From NCBI GenBank assembly GCA_947307015.1, contig CAMZHV010000004.1:38398-102397 (forward strand): DNA of 64,000 bases. The letters are read 5' to 3'. The notes beneath the pieces were generated by a model. That model was not told the DNA's origin. It did no database searches and worked only from the letters and a program-made list of their open reading frames with translations. Made by a program: the position numbers and the translations under genes. Positions 6,722-58,378 of the stretch are shown piece by piece (positions within the stretch are counted from its first letter, which is position 1; each line of letters starts with the position of its first letter). Origin of the DNA: an uncultured Prevotellaceae bacterium. GTDB taxonomy: Bacteria; Bacteroidota; Bacteroidia; Bacteroidales; Bacteroidaceae.

Positions 6722-9700
6722 TCAGTCACCCATAGCCTTCTGGTATTCTTGCCAGAGGGCATCAATGGTATGACCAGGTCCGAGGGCGTAGGCGACAGCA
6801 CCGTCCCATGACCAAGGGATGACTTCGCGGCAGGAGCGGTTCATCTTGCGGATGAAGTCAGAATCTTTGTTCTCACGTACCCAGTTGAAGAAATAGCCGA
6901 TGTAGCGGTAGCCGTCATGGTAGCTGCCGCCCTTGGGACGGTCTTTCTCGCCATGGAAGCCGCCGCAGGCCACGCGCACGGCATCGGCAGTGCCTTCAAC
7001 CATCTCCCAAACCGCCTTGTTGGAGCCTCCGTAGGGGCCTATGCCCTGCGGTTCGAGCTGGAAGGCGTGTGTCAGCTCATGGAGCAGCACGCCGCGCGTT
7101 TCGAAGTCCACACGGGCGGTGTCGTTGTTCGCGAAGGAGCGCTCGATATGTCCTGTAGTGTAGGTGATGCTTACATTGCCGTCGTCGCCGTCCTTCCACG
7201 AGACACCATCTGCGTTGCGCAGCACATAGTCGAGGTGATGGAGCACGGGCATACTGTCTTCGGGCGTAAAATAGAGGCAACGCATGACTTCGCGCGCCAC
7301 GCTGCGGATGTAAGGATCGGGCTCGGGGATGAGGGCGTGATAGATGGCTGAACCCTTCGTGGAGGACGCTCGGTCGTGGAAGTCGATGGCCAGTAAATGC
7401 TTGTTCCATTGGCGATCCTCGTCGGTGAGATCGGTGCTCATACGTCGTGCGATGGAGGCGCTGGCTGACTGTATCTCGTCGGAGAGTGAGTAAGGCTTTT
7501 CGGCGGGCGCGAGGCCACGGCGCGTGTTGGGCTTCGAAGCCATGTCAAACTCTAACGTACATCCTTGCATGAGCTGGCTGTGGGTGATGTAAAGCTTGGA
7601 ATAGGGCTGTCCGTTGAGGCGTACGGACTTGACGTAACAGTTCTTGTCGCTGACCTTGGGCGCACGGATCTCGATGTTTTTTCCGTTTTCAAGCGTCACC
7701 TTCATGTAAGGAAGATAGGGCGCACCGAGGACGTACTGCTCGGAGCCGGGGCAGACGGGATAAAAGCCCATGGCGGTGAAGATGTACCACGCGGACATCT
7801 GACCACAGTCGTCGTTGCCTCCAAGGCCGCGGATGTGGTTGCGGTACATCTTGTTCATGATGGTGCGCAGCCATTGCTGCGTTTTCCATGGAGTAGATGT
7901 CCAGGCGTAGAGGTAGGGCACGTGGTGGCTGGGCTCGTTGCCGTGGACGTAGCCTCCGACGAGACATTCTGCGGTGATGTCCTCATTATCTTCGTAGTAC
8001 TTCGCAGGCAGGTTCATCTCGAAGAGCTGGTTGAGCTTGTCGAGGAAAGCGCCCTCGCCGCCCATACATTGTATCAATCCGCGTACGTCATGCGGTACAT
8101 GGAAAGAAAAGTTCCAGGCGTTGCCCTCGATGAAGCCCTCGCCGTAGGTCTGGTAGGGGTCGAGGTCGGCTTTGAACTGACCGTTGCGGTAGCGTGGCGA
8201 CGCGAAGCCGCGTGTGGGATCAAAGGTGTTGCGGTAGTTTTGTGCGCGCTCCATGAACTCGCGGGCAATATCGTCGCGATGCAGCTGGCGGGCTGCACGG
8301 TAGATGGTCCAGTCGTCGTAGGCGTATTCAAGGGTATTGGAGGCTGCCGTGCCGTCGTGGTCGTAGGTGCAATAGCCGAAGCGACGGTAGTCGGCAAGCG
8401 TCGGCAGGTAACGGTTGTTGGCTGTGGCCACCATGGCGTCCAGCGCTGCCTTTTCCCATTCTCCTCCCAGATGACCAGCTTCACCAGTCTTCCCCCCTTG
8501 GGGGGATAAGAGGGGGGCTTTAACGATTGCATCGGCCAGCACGCTGACGGCATGGTAGCCCGTCATGCACCATCCTTCGTTGCCCATCAGGCTCCACACA
8601 GGTAGCATACCAACGATATTCTGCTTCTGATGGGCAATCATCGACTGCACCATATTGGTGTTGCGCGAAGGCTTGAGCAGGCCCAACAAAGGATGCTCGG
8701 CGCGGTAGGTGTCCCAAATGGAGAAGACGGTGTAGTTGTCAAAGCCCTCGGCGATGTGTATGTTGCCGTCGAGGCCGCGATAGTGACGGTCCACATCCAT
8801 GTAGATGGAGGGATTGATCATCGTGTGGTAGAGCGAGGTGTAGAGCATAGCTTTCTGGTCGGCGGTGCCTTCGCAGTCGATGACGGCAAGCTCGCGCTCC
8901 CATTCCTGCCTTGTCTTTGCCGCGATTTCATCAAAGCTCTTTCCTGCTGCCTCAGCTGCGAGGTTCAGCTTCGCACCTTCTGTGGAGACGGCGGAGAGCG
9001 CGACTTTGACGGTTAAAGCCTCACCCCCGCTGAACTCGAAATAAGCGACGACATTACGGCCTGCGATGTCGGGGAAATTGTTGTGGATGTCAAACTTACC
9101 CCAGAAGCCACCGTAGGGCTCACGCTTGCGGTCGCGATAGCCATAGTTGGCGACGGGTTGGCTGAAAGAGATGGCGAAATAGGTGTAGTTGGAGCGCGCC
9201 CAACCATCGGTGATGCGATATCCAGTGATGAGCGTGTCGTTCTCCACCCGTAGCGATGACCATAGCACCTTGCCGTCGTAGTTGTATATGCCGTGCGTCA
9301 GGTCCACGATGATACGTTGGCAGTCGGCATCGGAAGGATAAGTATAACAATGTACGCCCACGCGCGGGGTAGCGGTGAGCTGTGCGCGCACGCCATTATC
9401 GGCCAATGTCACCTCATAGTAGCCCGGTCGCGCCTGCTCTGTGTCGTGCGAGAAACGCTGCCGGTAGCCGCCGTCGGGATTGTCGCTGGTGCCGGGGTTC
9501 AGCTGCAATGGCCCCGTCTGCGGCATGATCAGGACGTCTCCGAGATCGGAATGTCCCGTGCCGCTGAGGTGCGTGTGGCTGAAGCCCACAATGGTGTTGT
9601 CTGTGTGCTGGTAGCCGGCGCAGTACTCATAGACTTTCCCTTGATAGTGGCCGTCCACGTTGTGGGGTATGGTGTCGGTGTCGGGCGAGAGCTGCACGAG

Positions 9701-9838
9701 GCCGAAGGGTGCGCAGGCGCCGGGGAAGGTGTGCCCCATGCCTTCCGTGCCGATGAAGGGGTTGACATAGTCGGTTCGGTTGTTCTGTGCGTGGGCGCCC
9801 AATGTCAGCGCCGCCAGCATCACGAGTAGGTTTTTCAT
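6722..9838 (-). CDS. GH92 alpha-mannosidase-like protein fused to a C-terminal basic secretory protein (BSP)-type metalloprotease domain
   Basis: Signal peptide MKNLLVMLAALTLGAHAQ; GTEGMGHTFPGACAPFGLVQLSPDT, GGNDDCGQMSAWYIFTAMGFYPVCPG; C-terminal HELTHAFQLEP zinc motif. Confidence 0.9.
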   Translation of the reverse strand: MKNLLVMLAALTLGAHAQNNRTDYVNPFIGTEGMGHTFPGACAPFGLVQLSPDTDTIPHNVDGHYQGKVYEYCAGYQHTDNTIVGFSHTHLSGTGHSDLGDVLIMPQTGPLQLNPGTSDNPDGGYRQRFSHDTEQARPGYYEVTLADNGVRAQLTATPRVGVHCYTYPSDADCQRIIVDLTHGIYNYDGKVLWSSLRVENDTLITGYRITDGWARSNYTYFAISFSQPVANYGYRDRKREPYGGFWGKFDIHNNFPDIAGRNVVAYFEFSGGEALTVKVALSAVSTEGAKLNLAAEAAGKSFDEIAAKTRQEWERELAVIDCEGTADQKAMLYTSLYHTMINPSIYMDVDRHYRGLDGNIHIAEGFDNYTVFSIWDTYRAEHPLLGLLKPSRNTNMVQSMIAHQKQNIVGMLPVWSLMGNEGWCMTGYHAVSVLADAIVKAPLLSPQGGKTGEAGHLGGEWEKAALDAMVATANNRYLPTLADYRRFGYCTYDHDGTAASNTLEYAYDDWTIYRAARQLHRDDIAREFMERAQNYRNTFDPTRGFASPRYRNGQFKADLDPYQTYGEGFIEGNAWNFSFHVPHDVRGLIQCMGGEGAFLDKLNQLFEMNLPAKYYEDNEDITAECLVGGYVHGNEPSHHVPYLYAWTSTPWKTQQWLRTIMNKMYRNHIRGLGGNDDCGQMSAWYIFTAMGFYPVCPGSEQYVLGAPYLPYMKVTLENGKNIEIRAPKVSDKNCYVKSVRLNGQPYSKLYITHSQLMQGCTLEFDMASKPNTRRGLAPAEKPYSLSDEIQSASASIARRMSTDLTDEDRQWNKHLLAIDFHDRASSTKGSAIYHALIPEPDPYIRSVAREVMRCLYFTPEDSMPVLHHLDYVLRNADGVSWKDGDDGNVSITYTTGHIERSFANNDTARVDFETRGVLLHELTHAFQLEPQGIGPYGGSNKAVWEMVEGTADAVRVACGGFHGEKDRPKGGSYHDGYRYIGYFFNWVRENKDSDFIRKMNRSCREVIPWSWDGAVAYALGPGHTIDALWQEYQKAMGD
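8484..8522 (-). repeat. Dispersed palindromic element inserted in frame in the GH92 gene
   Basis: coding strand taaagcccccctcttatccccccaaggggggaagactgg; encodes KAPLLSPQGGKTG. Confidence 0.7.
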
Positions 9839-9905
9839 TAGCTGATGTGTATGGTTGTTTAGGCAGACGCCTCGTTCTTTCGGTATTATTGGCTCTTTCT
9901 TGCTG

Positions 9906-9913
9906 CAAAAGTA
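9906..9913 (-). promoter_or_regulatory. -7 box (TACTTTTG) for the GH92 gene
   Basis: caaaagta on + strand about 70 nt upstream of the start. Confidence 0.5.
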
Positions 9914-10103
9914 CATAAAAATAAACAACAAACCTTCGTTTTGATACGTTTTAGAACAGTATTGCGGGATAAAAAACTCTTTTTTCATGCCATTTATAGA
10001 TTTTTCACGCGCCCGAACCTTATTTAAAAGAGAATTATGTTTAAGTTTGTACTCAAATCGAACTAAAAAAGGTCTTTTAGACCATATTCAAATACCTACT
10101 TAT

Positions 10104-10685
10104 ATGAACTTCCTGGAACAAAAAATACTTAAGGACGGAGTAATCAAGCAAGGCAATGTGCTCAAAATTGATAATTTCCTGAACCATCAGATTGACATCA
10201 ACATCATTCGGCAAATAGCAAGTGAACTGAAGCGTCGTTTCCACGATGTAGAGGTGAACAAGATATTGACCATTGAGGCCAGTGGTATCGCCATCGCAAC
10301 CATGCTGGGCCATCTTTATGATGTGCCTGTGGTGTTCGCCAAGAAAGGACAAACGGCCAATAGCACCGACGACAAATACATGAGCCAAGCTTATTCGTTC
10401 ACGCACAAGCGGATGAACAATGTATTCGTATCTAAACCGTATCTACAGCCCACAGATAAGGTGCTGATTGTTGATGACTTCTTGGCTGATGGTCAGGCGG
10501 CTCTTGCGCTCATCGATATTGTCCATCAAGCAGGTGCCAAGGTGATGGGAATTGGTGTTGCTGTGGAGAAAGGTCAGCAGAAAGGAGGCCGAATCTTGCG
10601 CAACGACGGTTTCCATGTCGAATCCATTGCCATCATCGAGGAAATGAATTATGAGGAACAATCCATCCGTTTTCTCGAACAATAG
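10104..10685 (+). CDS. xpt: Xanthine phosphoribosyltransferase
   Basis: MNFLEQKILKDGVIKQGNVLKIDNFLNHQID, KILTIEASGIAIA, KVLIVDDFLADGQA PRPP motif. Confidence 0.95.
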   Translation: MNFLEQKILKDGVIKQGNVLKIDNFLNHQIDINIIRQIASELKRRFHDVEVNKILTIEASGIAIATMLGHLYDVPVVFAKKGQTANSTDDKYMSQAYSFTHKRMNNVFVSKPYLQPTDKVLIVDDFLADGQAALALIDIVHQAGAKVMGIGVAVEKGQQKGGRILRNDGFHVESIAIIEEMNYEEQSIRFLEQ

Positions 10686-10921
10686 CCCTCCGCTTCATTC
10701 ACCAGTTCCAACGAGTATCGCCGCAAGCAAAAATAATTTTTGTTTGAAATAGACTACAGACTACAGCCGCCTGCCTTTGTTATCTACCATATATTTATAA
10801 CGTTTCGTTGCTGTTGTTATTGTTCGTTAGTCGCTCGACCTTTTCAAAGATAAGGAATCAATTATTTCGGAATAATCAGTAGAACCGTCCCCATGGTTTC
10901 TGAACCATGTAGATTTCCTGC

Positions 10922-11986
10922 TCATATTTTCTTCTTATCTAATTCTGCTTCCAATTCCTCAATTGTAGGAAGTGACGATTTCCATTTATCTGCAATTTCC
11001 ACATCAATTGCAGCCTCCCACGATGCGACACCTATTGGTTTGTTGATACTCTCAAGGGAATATTTAACGATGGTCTCGTTTTTACTCTTGACTAAAAGCA
11101 GACCTATGGTCTTTCCATCCGACTCATGGCGTAAAGTATCATCAACAACAGACTGATAGAACGATAACTGTCCCATCATACCAGGGTCGAAAGGAACGGC
11201 TTTTAATTCTACTACGACAAAACACCGTAGCCGTAGATGGTAGAAAAGCATATCTATATAGTAATCATGTCCAGCCAGCTCCAAATGTACCTGACGACCT
11301 ACGAAAGAAAAACCTTGCCCCAATTCAAGCAGGAATTGTGTGATATGAGTGGTTAGGCCATCCTCAATCTCTTTTTCTCTGCTGTTCGCATCAGCACCTG
11401 TAAAATCTAACAAATAGGGGTCTTTGAACATCTGCTGAACCATGTCGGACTGAACATCAGGCAGCGTTTTGTTGAAGTTCGAAGGAATCTTACCCGACCG
11501 TTCCAATGTGTAGTTCTCCAACTGGAGTTCTAAAATGGTTTTGCTCCAACCATGTTCAATGGCGGCCATAGCGTATGCAAGCCGCCGATTGGGTTCCTTC
11601 ACCTTTTCCATTAAGCAGATGTTATGCCGCCAAGGTAATTGTGCAACGCACCGTTGCACAATTTGTTCTTCTGGCCACAACTCAGCAAAGCGGCGCATAT
11701 ACTTCAGATTACGAGGAGAGAAGCCTTGCATCTCAGGGAATGCATATTTCAAGTCAACCGAAAGACGATCTACGACTTTTGTACCCCATCCTTCAGCATC
11801 CTGTCTGCGAAGGATTTCCTTACCAATGCTATAGTACATCATTGACATTTGTACATTGGCGGTCCACATTACCTTTCGCCGTCCATCAGCAACAAGTCTG
11901 CTGATGATATCCAGCATCTCGCCATACCAATCGGGCATAGTAGATGATGCTGGTGGAGCGGGGAAGAACACCCCTCTTTTAAGCAA
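10922..11986 (-). CDS. YhcG/DUF1016 family PDDEXK nuclease
   Basis: FSPRNLKYMRRFAELWP, CVAQLPWRHNICLM, YYIDMLFYHLRLRCFVVVELKA. Confidence 0.92.
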   Translation of the reverse strand: MLKRGVFFPAPPASSTMPDWYGEMLDIISRLVADGRRKVMWTANVQMSMMYYSIGKEILRRQDAEGWGTKVVDRLSVDLKYAFPEMQGFSPRNLKYMRRFAELWPEEQIVQRCVAQLPWRHNICLMEKVKEPNRRLAYAMAAIEHGWSKTILELQLENYTLERSGKIPSNFNKTLPDVQSDMVQQMFKDPYLLDFTGADANSREKEIEDGLTTHITQFLLELGQGFSFVGRQVHLELAGHDYYIDMLFYHLRLRCFVVVELKAVPFDPGMMGQLSFYQSVVDDTLRHESDGKTIGLLLVKSKNETIVKYSLESINKPIGVASWEAAIDVEIADKWKSSLPTIEELEAELDKKKI

Positions 11987-12111
11987 AATAATTAAGGAAA
12001 TATATCATAATTCAATTGTACCGAATCCGATGCAATTGGATTTTGAGTAGTTATTTTCATTACAATAATATTTACTTCTTTGTAAAACTGTTTGCCAATT
12101 ATTCAGAAAAA

Positions 12112-12652
12112 CAGCCATTTACAAAAAAGGTTTCAGGTTTCAGATTTGCTTGTATCTTACTCACAATCAATGGCTTTCTGGCTGAACCTTTATCGGCGAG
12201 GTTTCAGCAGGTTTCAGCAAGCTTCAGCCTACCCACCCTTCGGGGCATCTCACAAACCAAAAGCGTCCCAAATTATAAGTAATCGAGCAAAAATATTTAA
12301 ATAGATTGACGATAAGATTGACGGAGATTGACGGAGAATATAAACACTTGAATAATTTTGTTTTATCCGTCAATTTCCGTCAATCAAGTCGTCAATCTTC
12401 GAAAATCAATAATGTAATCTAATTTTGAGTACTTACTTACCGATTTAAATTCCGATACATCAAGATTTAAGGTCAGATTTATGTCAGATTTAAGGTCTAT
12501 AAAAAATACATCCGAAACTTGAATATTACAATCATCTGAACCTTGCTGAAACCTGCTGAAACCTCAAACGCAAAGGTTCAGCTTGTATGGCTTTGATCAA
12601 CAGAAAGTTAAAACCCTAAGCTGAAACCTGAAACCTTTTTGATAAATGGCTG
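12112..12652. repeat. Nested imperfect inverted-repeat locus (arms A, B, C)
   Basis: Arm A 12112-12143/12621-12652; arm B 12181-12227/12536-12582; arm C 12303-12335/12366-12398; arms built of short direct repeats. Confidence 0.8.
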
Positions 12653-12692
12653 GATTTTTGGGATCTCGCGTCATCCATCATTCGTCATCGCC

Positions 12693-12780
12693 ACACATAT
12701 ATACGTGTGAGGCCATACGTCTATACGTATGTGCCAATACGTCTATACGTATCGCCGTGTCCCATTAATGGGACGCGCGA
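12693..12780. repeat. 22-bp-period units with internal dyads
   Basis: 12693-12714 acacatatatacgtgtgaggcc; 12715-12736 atacgtctatacgtatgtgcca; 12737-12758 atacgtctatacgtatcgccgt; 12759-12780 gtcccattaatgggacgcgcga. Confidence 0.7.
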
Positions 12781-12957
12781 ACCCTCCTAAGAGTCTACGC
12801 GAACCCTCCTAAGAGTCTACGCGAACCCTCCTAAGAGACCACGCAAACCCTCCTAAGAGTCTACGCGTAGACTCCTAAGGGTTTTTGCAAATTGCCTATA
12901 GGGTTTTGGCGAATTGTCTATAGTGTTTTGGCAGAAAGCCTAAGGGGTGTTGGCAGA
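12776..12957. repeat. 22-bp tandem repeat array that reverses orientation at its centre
   Basis: Four units cgcgaaccctcctaagagtcta (12776-12863), perfect palindrome gagtctacgcgtagactc at 12857-12874, then four degenerate inverted units (12868-12957). Confidence 0.85.
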
Positions 12958-12997
12958 AAAGAAAAACAGCCGATAATCTTTCGACTATCAGCTGTTC
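12955..12997 (-). terminator. Rho-independent terminator of tRNA-Pro
   Basis: Stem aacagc..gctgtt plus gata/tatc, followed on - strand by tttttctttt. Confidence 0.7.
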
Positions 12998-13006
12998 TTT
13001 TAAGTT

Positions 13007-13083
13007 GTCGGGATGACTAGATTCGAACTAGCGACCCCACGCCCCCCAGACGCGTACTCTAACCGGACTGAGCTACATCCCGA
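13007..13083 (-). tRNA. tRNA-Pro (GGG anticodon)
   Basis: TCGGGATGTAGCTCAGTCCGGTTAGAGTACGCGTCTGGGGGGCGTGGGGTCGCTAGTTCGAATCTAGTCATCCCGAC; acceptor TCGGGAT/ATCCCGA, TTCGAAT T-loop, anticodon loop CTGGGGG. Confidence 0.93.
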
Positions 13084-57338: not shown

Positions 57339-57373
57339 ATAGTTGCCACCCAATCCTCTTATTGCGCGTATAC

Positions 57374-58197
57374 GCGCGCACGTGAAAGGCCTAAAAATCT
57401 CGTCACATCGTCACAGATTGACTTATCTGTCTGTTATACAGCTTGATATATCGTGACTTTTGGTGTGACAGAGCGTGACAAGGTGACGAAATCGAGGAAA
57501 ACGCGACGAAAAACATACTGAAATCAGGAAGAAAATAGGTTTAAACAGGACTCCTGTTGCGGATGTATGATTGTATTTCAGAACTTAAATCCAACATAAA
57601 TCTAAACCTAAATCATGAAGTTTCGGTATTAAAAAAACATTAAAAACACCTCTTCTGATGTCTGAGTCTTTCAGACTTGCGTGCTGCTGTCGTGACGATG
57701 CGCCTAAAAGCAAGCTTTTGCGCACGCTACGCCATCATCCCTCGTTTCGTCCCGAAACACAGACATCAACAGAGGCAAACGCTCGAACTTGTTCGCTTCT
57801 TCGAGTCTCTTCTATGAGACGAGTCTGAAGAACATCGCGCTTCGCGCTAAAAAAAAGAGCTACTGACGATCATTTTGATTTCATAATGTGGCATCAATGA
57901 AAAGATTGAATATCGTTTCAGCAGATGACTTCGCCGCGCTCAACGAATGCAATATAGACTTACCTAATCGCAAAAGTCACGGATTCTGTGCAAGAGGACA
58001 TGCTTTTTTATGTTCCAGAACCTAAAAATACATCATTTTGAATGTTAATATCATTTAATTTCAGGGTGAAAATGAGCCGTTTTGTCACCAAATCACGCCT
58101 CGTCACAGGCTTTGTCACGGCATAGTTACCTGTTTATCAGATATATAACCATACAATGTGACGATGTGACGACATTTTGATAGCCTCTCGTGCGCGC
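57374..58197. repeat. Second nested imperfect inverted-repeat locus
   Basis: Outer arms 57374-57415/58157-58197; second arms about 57420-57490/58079-58147; inner arms about 57562-57588/58008-58035. Confidence 0.75.
57631..57873 (+). repeat. Structured dispersed element, copy B
   Basis: See copy A (14636-14870); same orientation. Confidence 0.85.
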
Positions 58198-58256
58198 GCG
58201 TAGGTCGCGCCCATCATCTTTGCACAGCGTGACTTCATACTCGCATCAGTCAACAC

Positions 58257-58326
58257 GTCTATACGTTTTAGCCGATACGTATAGACAAATAGACTGTTCG
58301 ACACGTGTCGAACAGTCTATTCGTCT
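58257..58326. repeat. Adjacent hairpins including a 34-bp perfect palindrome
   Basis: gtctatacgt..acgtatagac (58257-58286); aatagactgttcgacac/gtgtcgaacagtctatt (58288-58321). Confidence 0.9.
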
Positions 58327-58378
58327 CTTCTGCCCAAAGGCATTTATATATTTGGTAACCAGAAAGTGATGTACTGAC

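Follow-up and report, generated by a model that had tools for sequence, protein, structure and literature searches.

A nested locus of gene-less inverted repeats in a rumen Bacteroidaceae genome and its probable kinship with BT4734/VapE elements

A long non-coding locus between a YhcG-type nuclease gene and tRNA-Pro in the draft genome of a rumen bacterium (2.99 Mb, 94 contigs) is made up of three or more dispersed repeats, set one inside another, rather than of a single element. We consider it probable that these are nested, MITE-like, gene-less derivatives of the BT4734/VapE element class, their short words and palindromes being putative VapE sites. The locus lies in a stretch of 64,000 nucleotides (G000:C4:38398-102397), hereafter the window, and positions given without a contig refer to it. 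Dispersal of the repeats, their nesting, element-free sites and the absence of RNA-type covariation are established. Among the genomes compared, the nearest congener is G019, an uncultured rumen Bacteroidaceae MAG (CAJORF01).

Architecture of the nested locus

When the locus was compared by BLAST with its own genome, it split into modules that have independent copies. The layers are element A, with GGTTTCAGC arms; element B, with TAAGTA ends and a ATTGACGG hairpin; module C, with AGATTTAAGGTC iterons; and then an array of 22-nt palindromes. The features of the window are as follows.

10729-10776, + strand: half-arm of family I (AGACTACAGACTACAGC), whose arm pair elsewhere encloses HU-HIG and VapE genes
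10925-11986, - strand: YhcG-type PD-(D/E)XK nuclease gene, adjoining the tip of A; another gene takes its place in the congener G019
12104-12275, + strand: left arm of element A (tip AAAAACAGCCATTTACAAAAAAGG, words GGTTTCAG) and left part of its centre, from own-genome BLAST and a MAFFT alignment of 15 A copies or half copies
12276-12439, + strand: element B, inserted within A/C, with ends TAAGTAATC...TACTTACTTA that are clean and common in the alignment of B copies
12303-12398, + strand: ATTGACGG hairpin within B, three words per arm, a separable layer in the same alignment
12441-12526, + strand: module C (AGATTTAAGGTCAGATTTATGTCAGATTTAAGGTC iterons), common to the second locus and found elsewhere as inverted pairs
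12527-12660, + strand: right arm of element A, tip AAATGGCTGGATTTTT, from own-genome BLAST and the MAFFT alignment of A copies
12690-12943, + strand: 22-nt array of palindromic units after element A, centres at 12701, 12723, 12745 and 12767
57373-57491, + strand: second locus, left arm of element D (GTCAC words, tip CGCGCGCACGTG)
57556-57634, - strand: module C within element D, an inverted match to C of the first locus
58080-58198, + strand: second locus, right arm of element D
58247-58330, + strand: array-like palindromes (ACGTCTATACGT..., GACTGTTCGACACGTGTCGAACAGTC) beside D, with a weak 22-nt register (19/36)

The original prediction, made from the DNA letters, described three nested pairs of inverted arms, and these were recovered at 12112-12143/12621-12652, 12181-12227/12536-12582 and 12303-12335/12366-12398 with 30/32, 40/47 and 29/33 matches, together with the direct word repeats inside the arms. 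The inverted design reaches slightly beyond these limits (12104-12146/12618-12660 and 12150-12227/12536-12613). Both the outer and the inner pair score well above dinucleotide-shuffled sequence: the local alignment score of the outer A arms is 65.5, against a maximum of 20 in 500 shuffles, and that of the inner B arms is 28, against a shuffle maximum of 17. No ORF longer than 88 aa overlaps the arms, in agreement with the earlier statement that the locus holds no credible ORF, and the neighbours are, as predicted, a YhcG-type gene (PF17761+PF06250) and tRNA-Pro. That description had left out the related half-arm at 10729-10776 and the 22-nt array, which is part of the design and keeps a strict register, with a lag-22 identity of 36/36. 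Arrays were scored by lag autocorrelation because a strict palindrome-spacing test was underpowered.

In the alignment of A copies the left tip is sharp (AAAAWCCAGCCATTTACAAAAAAGG) and the right tip matches it, and at least three unrelated types of centre occur between the same arms; complete copies carry a 22-nt array 3′ of the right tip. At G000:C1:114694-115026 the two halves of A are separated by only 7 bp, which makes this copy an A element free of B and C. The inner layers also separate: L053 is a B copy without the ATTGACGG hairpin, L031, L048 and L049 have the hairpin without B ends, and one B copy is placed exactly between the two arms of a C pair. Module C consists of three iterons and is found as inverted pairs, alone or within other elements.

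As predicted, the segment at 12.43-12.53 kb recurs in inverted orientation at 57556-57634 (77% over 79 bp). The second locus (57.37-58.20 kb) does again contain a long inverted repeat (57373-57491/58080-58198; local alignment score 45.5, shuffle maximum 19.5), but it had been taken for another locus of the same family, whereas it belongs to a different arm family, D, with C inside it as the only module in common. Element D has further copies in the genome. The notion of one family does not hold: several unrelated arm families (A, B, C and D here; F, with the word GGTGGCAGTTTT, G, H and I elsewhere) follow one nested design with different words, and the window repeats belong to a class. The idea that two D half-copies on contig C60 bound a 14-kb composite was considered and rejected, since the interior consists of housekeeping genes and the two halves are separate.

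Dispersal and element-free sites

In total, 70 merged loci of the genome carry A, B, C, D, I or array copies. Many of these copies stand at contig ends (C16, C24, C34, C43, C44, C51, C2, C10 and C32), so the repeats break the assembly and these copy numbers are underestimates. Element B is absent from the sites orthologous to copy L051 in two congeners, where the gap is 107 and 28 bp compared with 237 bp here, and the C pair is absent from the syntenic site in one congener (417 versus 89 bp). A copies without B or C, taken with syntenic sites without B or C, show that these modules were acquired. The repeats are thus non-coding, short and dispersed, with terminal inverted repeats and with both filled and empty sites, as MITEs are, and a putative autonomous parent with the same ends was found for family F (the VapE unit L211 and its deletion form L180, described below). 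Our comparisons revealed no gene-bearing unit whose arms are of type A, B, C or D, and no transposase or recombinase is consistently linked to the elements. The ends of B are bordered by TA/TTA-like sequence with no consistent duplication, exact target duplications being unreadable at the syntenic sites because the flanks have diverged too far. With dozens of copies and sites that lack the element, the predicted recurrence of a non-coding, possibly mobile family is borne out, and 'mobile remnant' proved the best of the functions that had been proposed.

A plasmid or phage origin of the locus was rejected, as DNA comparison with 72,556 plasmid records and 50,697 phage records gave no match to it and its pattern was not found in viral contigs. 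Cargo nucleases (YhcG, DUF4143, PDDEXK) were likewise rejected as mobilisers, the neighbours being accessory genes of many kinds with no consistent gene among them; beside A copies (L032, L033, L040, L041, L043, L044) we observed KilA-N, HEPN, ORF6N, T5orf172, DUF2971 and HTH genes.

In G019:C43 (L095), compared with window positions 8000-13080, the part corresponding to 8000-10825 is 97.7% identical, but a gene that by eye resembles the AlbA_2 type stands in place of the YhcG gene, the left arm of A and element B. After this gene come C, a right A arm that is shortened, the array and a tRNA-Pro that is truncated. L042 (C11) and L096 (G019:C130) have orthologous A elements with arrays, and in both species a tyrosine-recombinase gene adjoins the element. 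At L207 (C21:25000-36000), 242-bp inverted repeats that are 99.2% identical (3441-3682/5844-6085) lie around HU-HIG and amidase genes, and copies of about 235 bp that are 100% identical to this repeat occur at two other loci (L052 and L180), so at least one such family has moved recently. The L207-type repeats contain CCAGCCATTT palindromes, which resemble the A tip.

Units that carry VapE-type genes

VapE-family ATPases are predicted mobile-element helicases and BT4734 is an archaeo-eukaryotic primase family, as described in the passages of PMC5862659 on these proteins. The gene-bearing relatives of the repeats have the PF08800 and PF05272 domains of this family, and their VapE part matches PDB 7pds. 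Walker A/B residues are kept in the VapE proteins, while residues of primase motifs I and II are lost in nearly all copies; only L207 keeps both motifs, as judged by eye.

The unit of family F at L211 (contig C12, about 3.1 kb) consists of a hairpin, a promoter-like leader, DUF6078, a GTGTCCCATTAATGGGAC array, VapE (706 aa, with BT4734 N-terminal, VapE/AAA+ and DUF3874 domains) and an inverted hairpin. L180 (contig C13, 0.6 kb) aligns with L211 in three collinear blocks at 84%, 93% and 85% identity, retains the two hairpins, the array and the final 48 residues of VapE (77%, E=5e-18), and represents an internal deletion of the F unit at another locus. Single F hairpins with the array occur at further loci. 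The unit at 12756-12777 of the window array (CGTGTCCCATTAATGGGACGCG) recurs without a mismatch over its 22 nt in L211 and L180, and this is the best evidence for a putative kinship between gene-less hairpin-plus-array elements and VapE units; apart from the shared unit, the link between family A and VapE is architectural, and no VapE relic was found at the window locus.

VapE genes lie between two inverted hairpins of one private word at L211 (GGTGGCAGTTTT), L208 (TTTGCCTTCACTTTTGC) and L214 (TGCACTTTTGCACT) and, with further words, at L254 and L267 in congeners, where a word hairpin also stands just 3′ of the VapE gene at L251, L252, L256, L259, L264 and L268. Three pairs of VapE proteins with 66-87% identity (L211/L259, L214/L267 and L253/L268) have the same or nearly the same words, whereas other pairs at 67-71% identity have no words in common. 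On contig C2, a family-I arm pair encloses an HU-HIG gene and a VapE-like gene. Family I arms also border AAA+ ATPase genes in the congener (G019:C99, L202, at 3216, 6483 and 8518), which suggests that they may have cargo besides VapE.

A hairpin is present 5′ of 10/26 BT4734/VapE genes compared with 2/41 neighbouring genes (p=8e-4), inverted flanks with a score of at least 30 surround 4/26 VapE genes and 0/44 comparison genes, and the 3′ word occurs on both strands at 11/19 VapE genes not linked to lpxD versus 8/41 (p=0.004). Periodicity of 22 nt was detected 5′ of 11/32 BT4734/VapE genes and of none of 41 other genes (p=3.6e-5), in a set that takes in B. finegoldii, P. distasonis and one human faecal contig; the order in P. 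distasonis is DUF6078, 22-nt array, BT4734 and word hairpin. Since the comparison genes are neighbours of VapE genes and have some intergenic regions in common with them, these tests are conservative on that point. Helicase genes of the BT4734/VapE type are set in the same architecture, each with its own word, both in this genus and in Bacteroides and Parabacteroides, and class membership of the repeats with the VapE units is supported by these comparisons. Among the 13 HU-HIG/VapE loci of the genome, seven have an A, B, C, D, array or I copy less than 1 kb away, compared with 6% expected under uniform placement (P about 5e-6), a proximity for which shared residence in variable regions is a partial alternative. 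At L218 the VapE gene adjoins an A arm but sits outside its tip.

At seven loci in different species (L210, L255, L257, L258, L263, L265 and L266) a VapE/BT4734 gene is directly upstream of lpxD, a position that is apparently fixed in every species examined that has such genes. These genes are without the 3′ hairpin and can have a 22-nt array 5′ (L210, L266), and the array may accordingly serve the regulation of VapE genes in general instead of mobility. Our literature search on BF3469 and DUF6078 returned no papers.

Proposed explanation, known systems and alternatives

On the preferred reading, the locus would be a composite in which module C and element B, with its hairpin, sit inside a foldback-type element A that ends in the 22-nt array. 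In the gene-bearing members of the class, a BT4734/VapE AAA+ helicase gene, in many cases accompanied by DUF6078 or HU-HIG, is flanked by hairpins whose 7-12 bp word is specific to the gene, with a 22-nt palindrome array alongside. The words and palindromes are candidate sites, at the origin or the ends, for binding by the cognate VapE-type ATPase; this protein could serve as initiator, attach to the words and palindromes of its own unit and melt or replicate that unit. Gene-less copies arise through internal deletion, as family F shows, and would spread when a VapE-type protein acts in trans; insertions would pile up in the centres, since the element codes for nothing and has to preserve no more than its arms and array. 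The earlier suggestion of a replication site survives as a component of this mechanism, since the gene-bearing relatives encode a replication-type helicase, and overall the original prediction was partly supported. Several findings weigh against the VapE reading: a gene-bearing parent of family A itself was not found, nor was a transposase or target duplication identified, the array lies between the hairpins in F but outside the right arm in A (as in L214), and most BT4734 domains are without primase motifs.

A broader proposal, which we put forward tentatively as a possibility short of an even chance, is that these are minimal mobile elements of Bacteroidales whose sole initiator of mobility or replication would be a BT4734/VapE AAA+ helicase, its primase domain mostly dead, helped by DUF6078 or HU-HIG. 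This protein would read a private iteron code in the flanking hairpins together with a 22-bp palindrome array, the code diversifying with the protein and leaving gene-less clouds like the window locus. If VapE alone mobilises the units, this would be a mobility mechanism without a recognised transposase. BT4734/VapE, HU-HIG and DUF6078 genes are multi-copy in Bacteroidales and have no clear function, so that the link would give them a testable role; the association with private word hairpins, 22-nt arrays and gene-less derivatives would also explain a large unannotated repeat fraction that breaks assemblies.

Origins of SaPI/PICI carry iterons in inverted arrangement. The present units resemble these satellites in having a VapE-family initiator helicase (the 7pds match) and VapE genes with their own word hairpins, to which binding is putative; they differ in that no integrase, capsid-hijacking or other satellite genes were seen in the small units examined and that gene-less copies are dispersed in chromosomes. 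BT4734-like primases fused to VirE/VapE ATPases are likewise PF08800 and PF05272 proteins predicted to replicate mobile elements (PMC5862659), but primase motifs are degenerate in nearly all copies here, and the passages of that paper on these fusions make no mention of word hairpins or 22-nt arrays. Foldback/Galileo transposons (PMC3688188, PMC3573991) share long inverted arms of short direct repeats, possibly multiple binding sites, and many deletion derivatives; they are eukaryotic and have a P-element transposase, of which none was found here. REP/REPIN sequences with RAYT (PMC3116915) are also dispersed intergenic palindromes spread in trans, but their units are 20-40 bp. A RAYT/REP model was rejected here because the arms are about 120 bp and the sole Y1_Tnp match (C32:18081) is not near A copies. 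The element class appears to be undescribed.

We think it rather unlikely that the repeats are ordinary MITEs of DDE-type insertion sequences not yet discovered, nested by chance and close to VapE genes through shared variable regions. Such an origin would suit the intergenic, dispersed placement of the copies, their terminal inverted arms, the nesting and the tandem arrays, which resemble BrickBuilt of Porphyromonas gingivalis (a MITE that stands in this relation to IS5), and neighbours that are accessory genes generally (KilA-N, HEPN, ORF6N, T5orf172, DUF4143). Against it, the F deletion derivative connects the hairpins and the array with a VapE unit, other genera also have the 22-nt array 5′ of their VapE genes, and no clear target duplication was seen. 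BrickBuilt, like MITE464/PgRS (PMC4596501), shares with the window class a Bacteroidales host, 10-20 intergenic copies, MITE-in-MITE nesting, inverted ends and a short-period tandem array (23 or 41 nt there) with flanking leader and tail. It differs in its IS5-like 12-bp ends, with the TIR GAGACCTTTGCA and a 23-nt array, and has no long word-repeat arms, whereas A has AAAAWCCAGCCATTT ends, a period of 22 nt with palindromic units, long inverted short-word arms and relatives with VapE/BT4734 genes.

It is less likely still that arms and arrays are cis-regulatory or chromosome-organising sites, such as VapE/HU-HIG operators or nucleoid arrays, spread by recombination rather than as mobile ends. 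Phased 22-nt palindromes would fit a protein that binds DNA cooperatively, HU-HIG belongs to the HU-type DNA-binding proteins and arrays also lie 5′ of the lpxD-fixed VapE genes at L210 and L266; the sharp ends, nested insertion, element-free syntenic sites and a deletion derivative at a new locus argue for mobile ends instead. An integron-like tyrosine-recombinase integration or cassette site is highly improbable and was rejected: one A copy does adjoin such a gene in two species and species carry different genes next to the window copy, but only one of the four PF00589 genes in the genome is near any A copy, there is no common integrase, and the copies are not in cassette arrays, as an integron cassette or attC site would require.

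We give equally little credence to a long structured RNA family, another of the earlier suggestions, and rejected it. Its potential hairpins are strong, but Rfam gave no match at the gathering score (the weak matches being plant and animal miRNA hairpin models), and copies freely exchange their centres and sub-modules. Across 12 A copies we counted 16 double changes at positions that pair, against 14.4 +/- 3.0 when right arms were permuted among copies, and arm complementarity was 76.4% within copies and 76.1% between copies, so the arms do not covary as those of a conserved folded RNA would. Left arms resemble left arms and right arms resemble right arms, the two having drifted separately, as transposon ends do.
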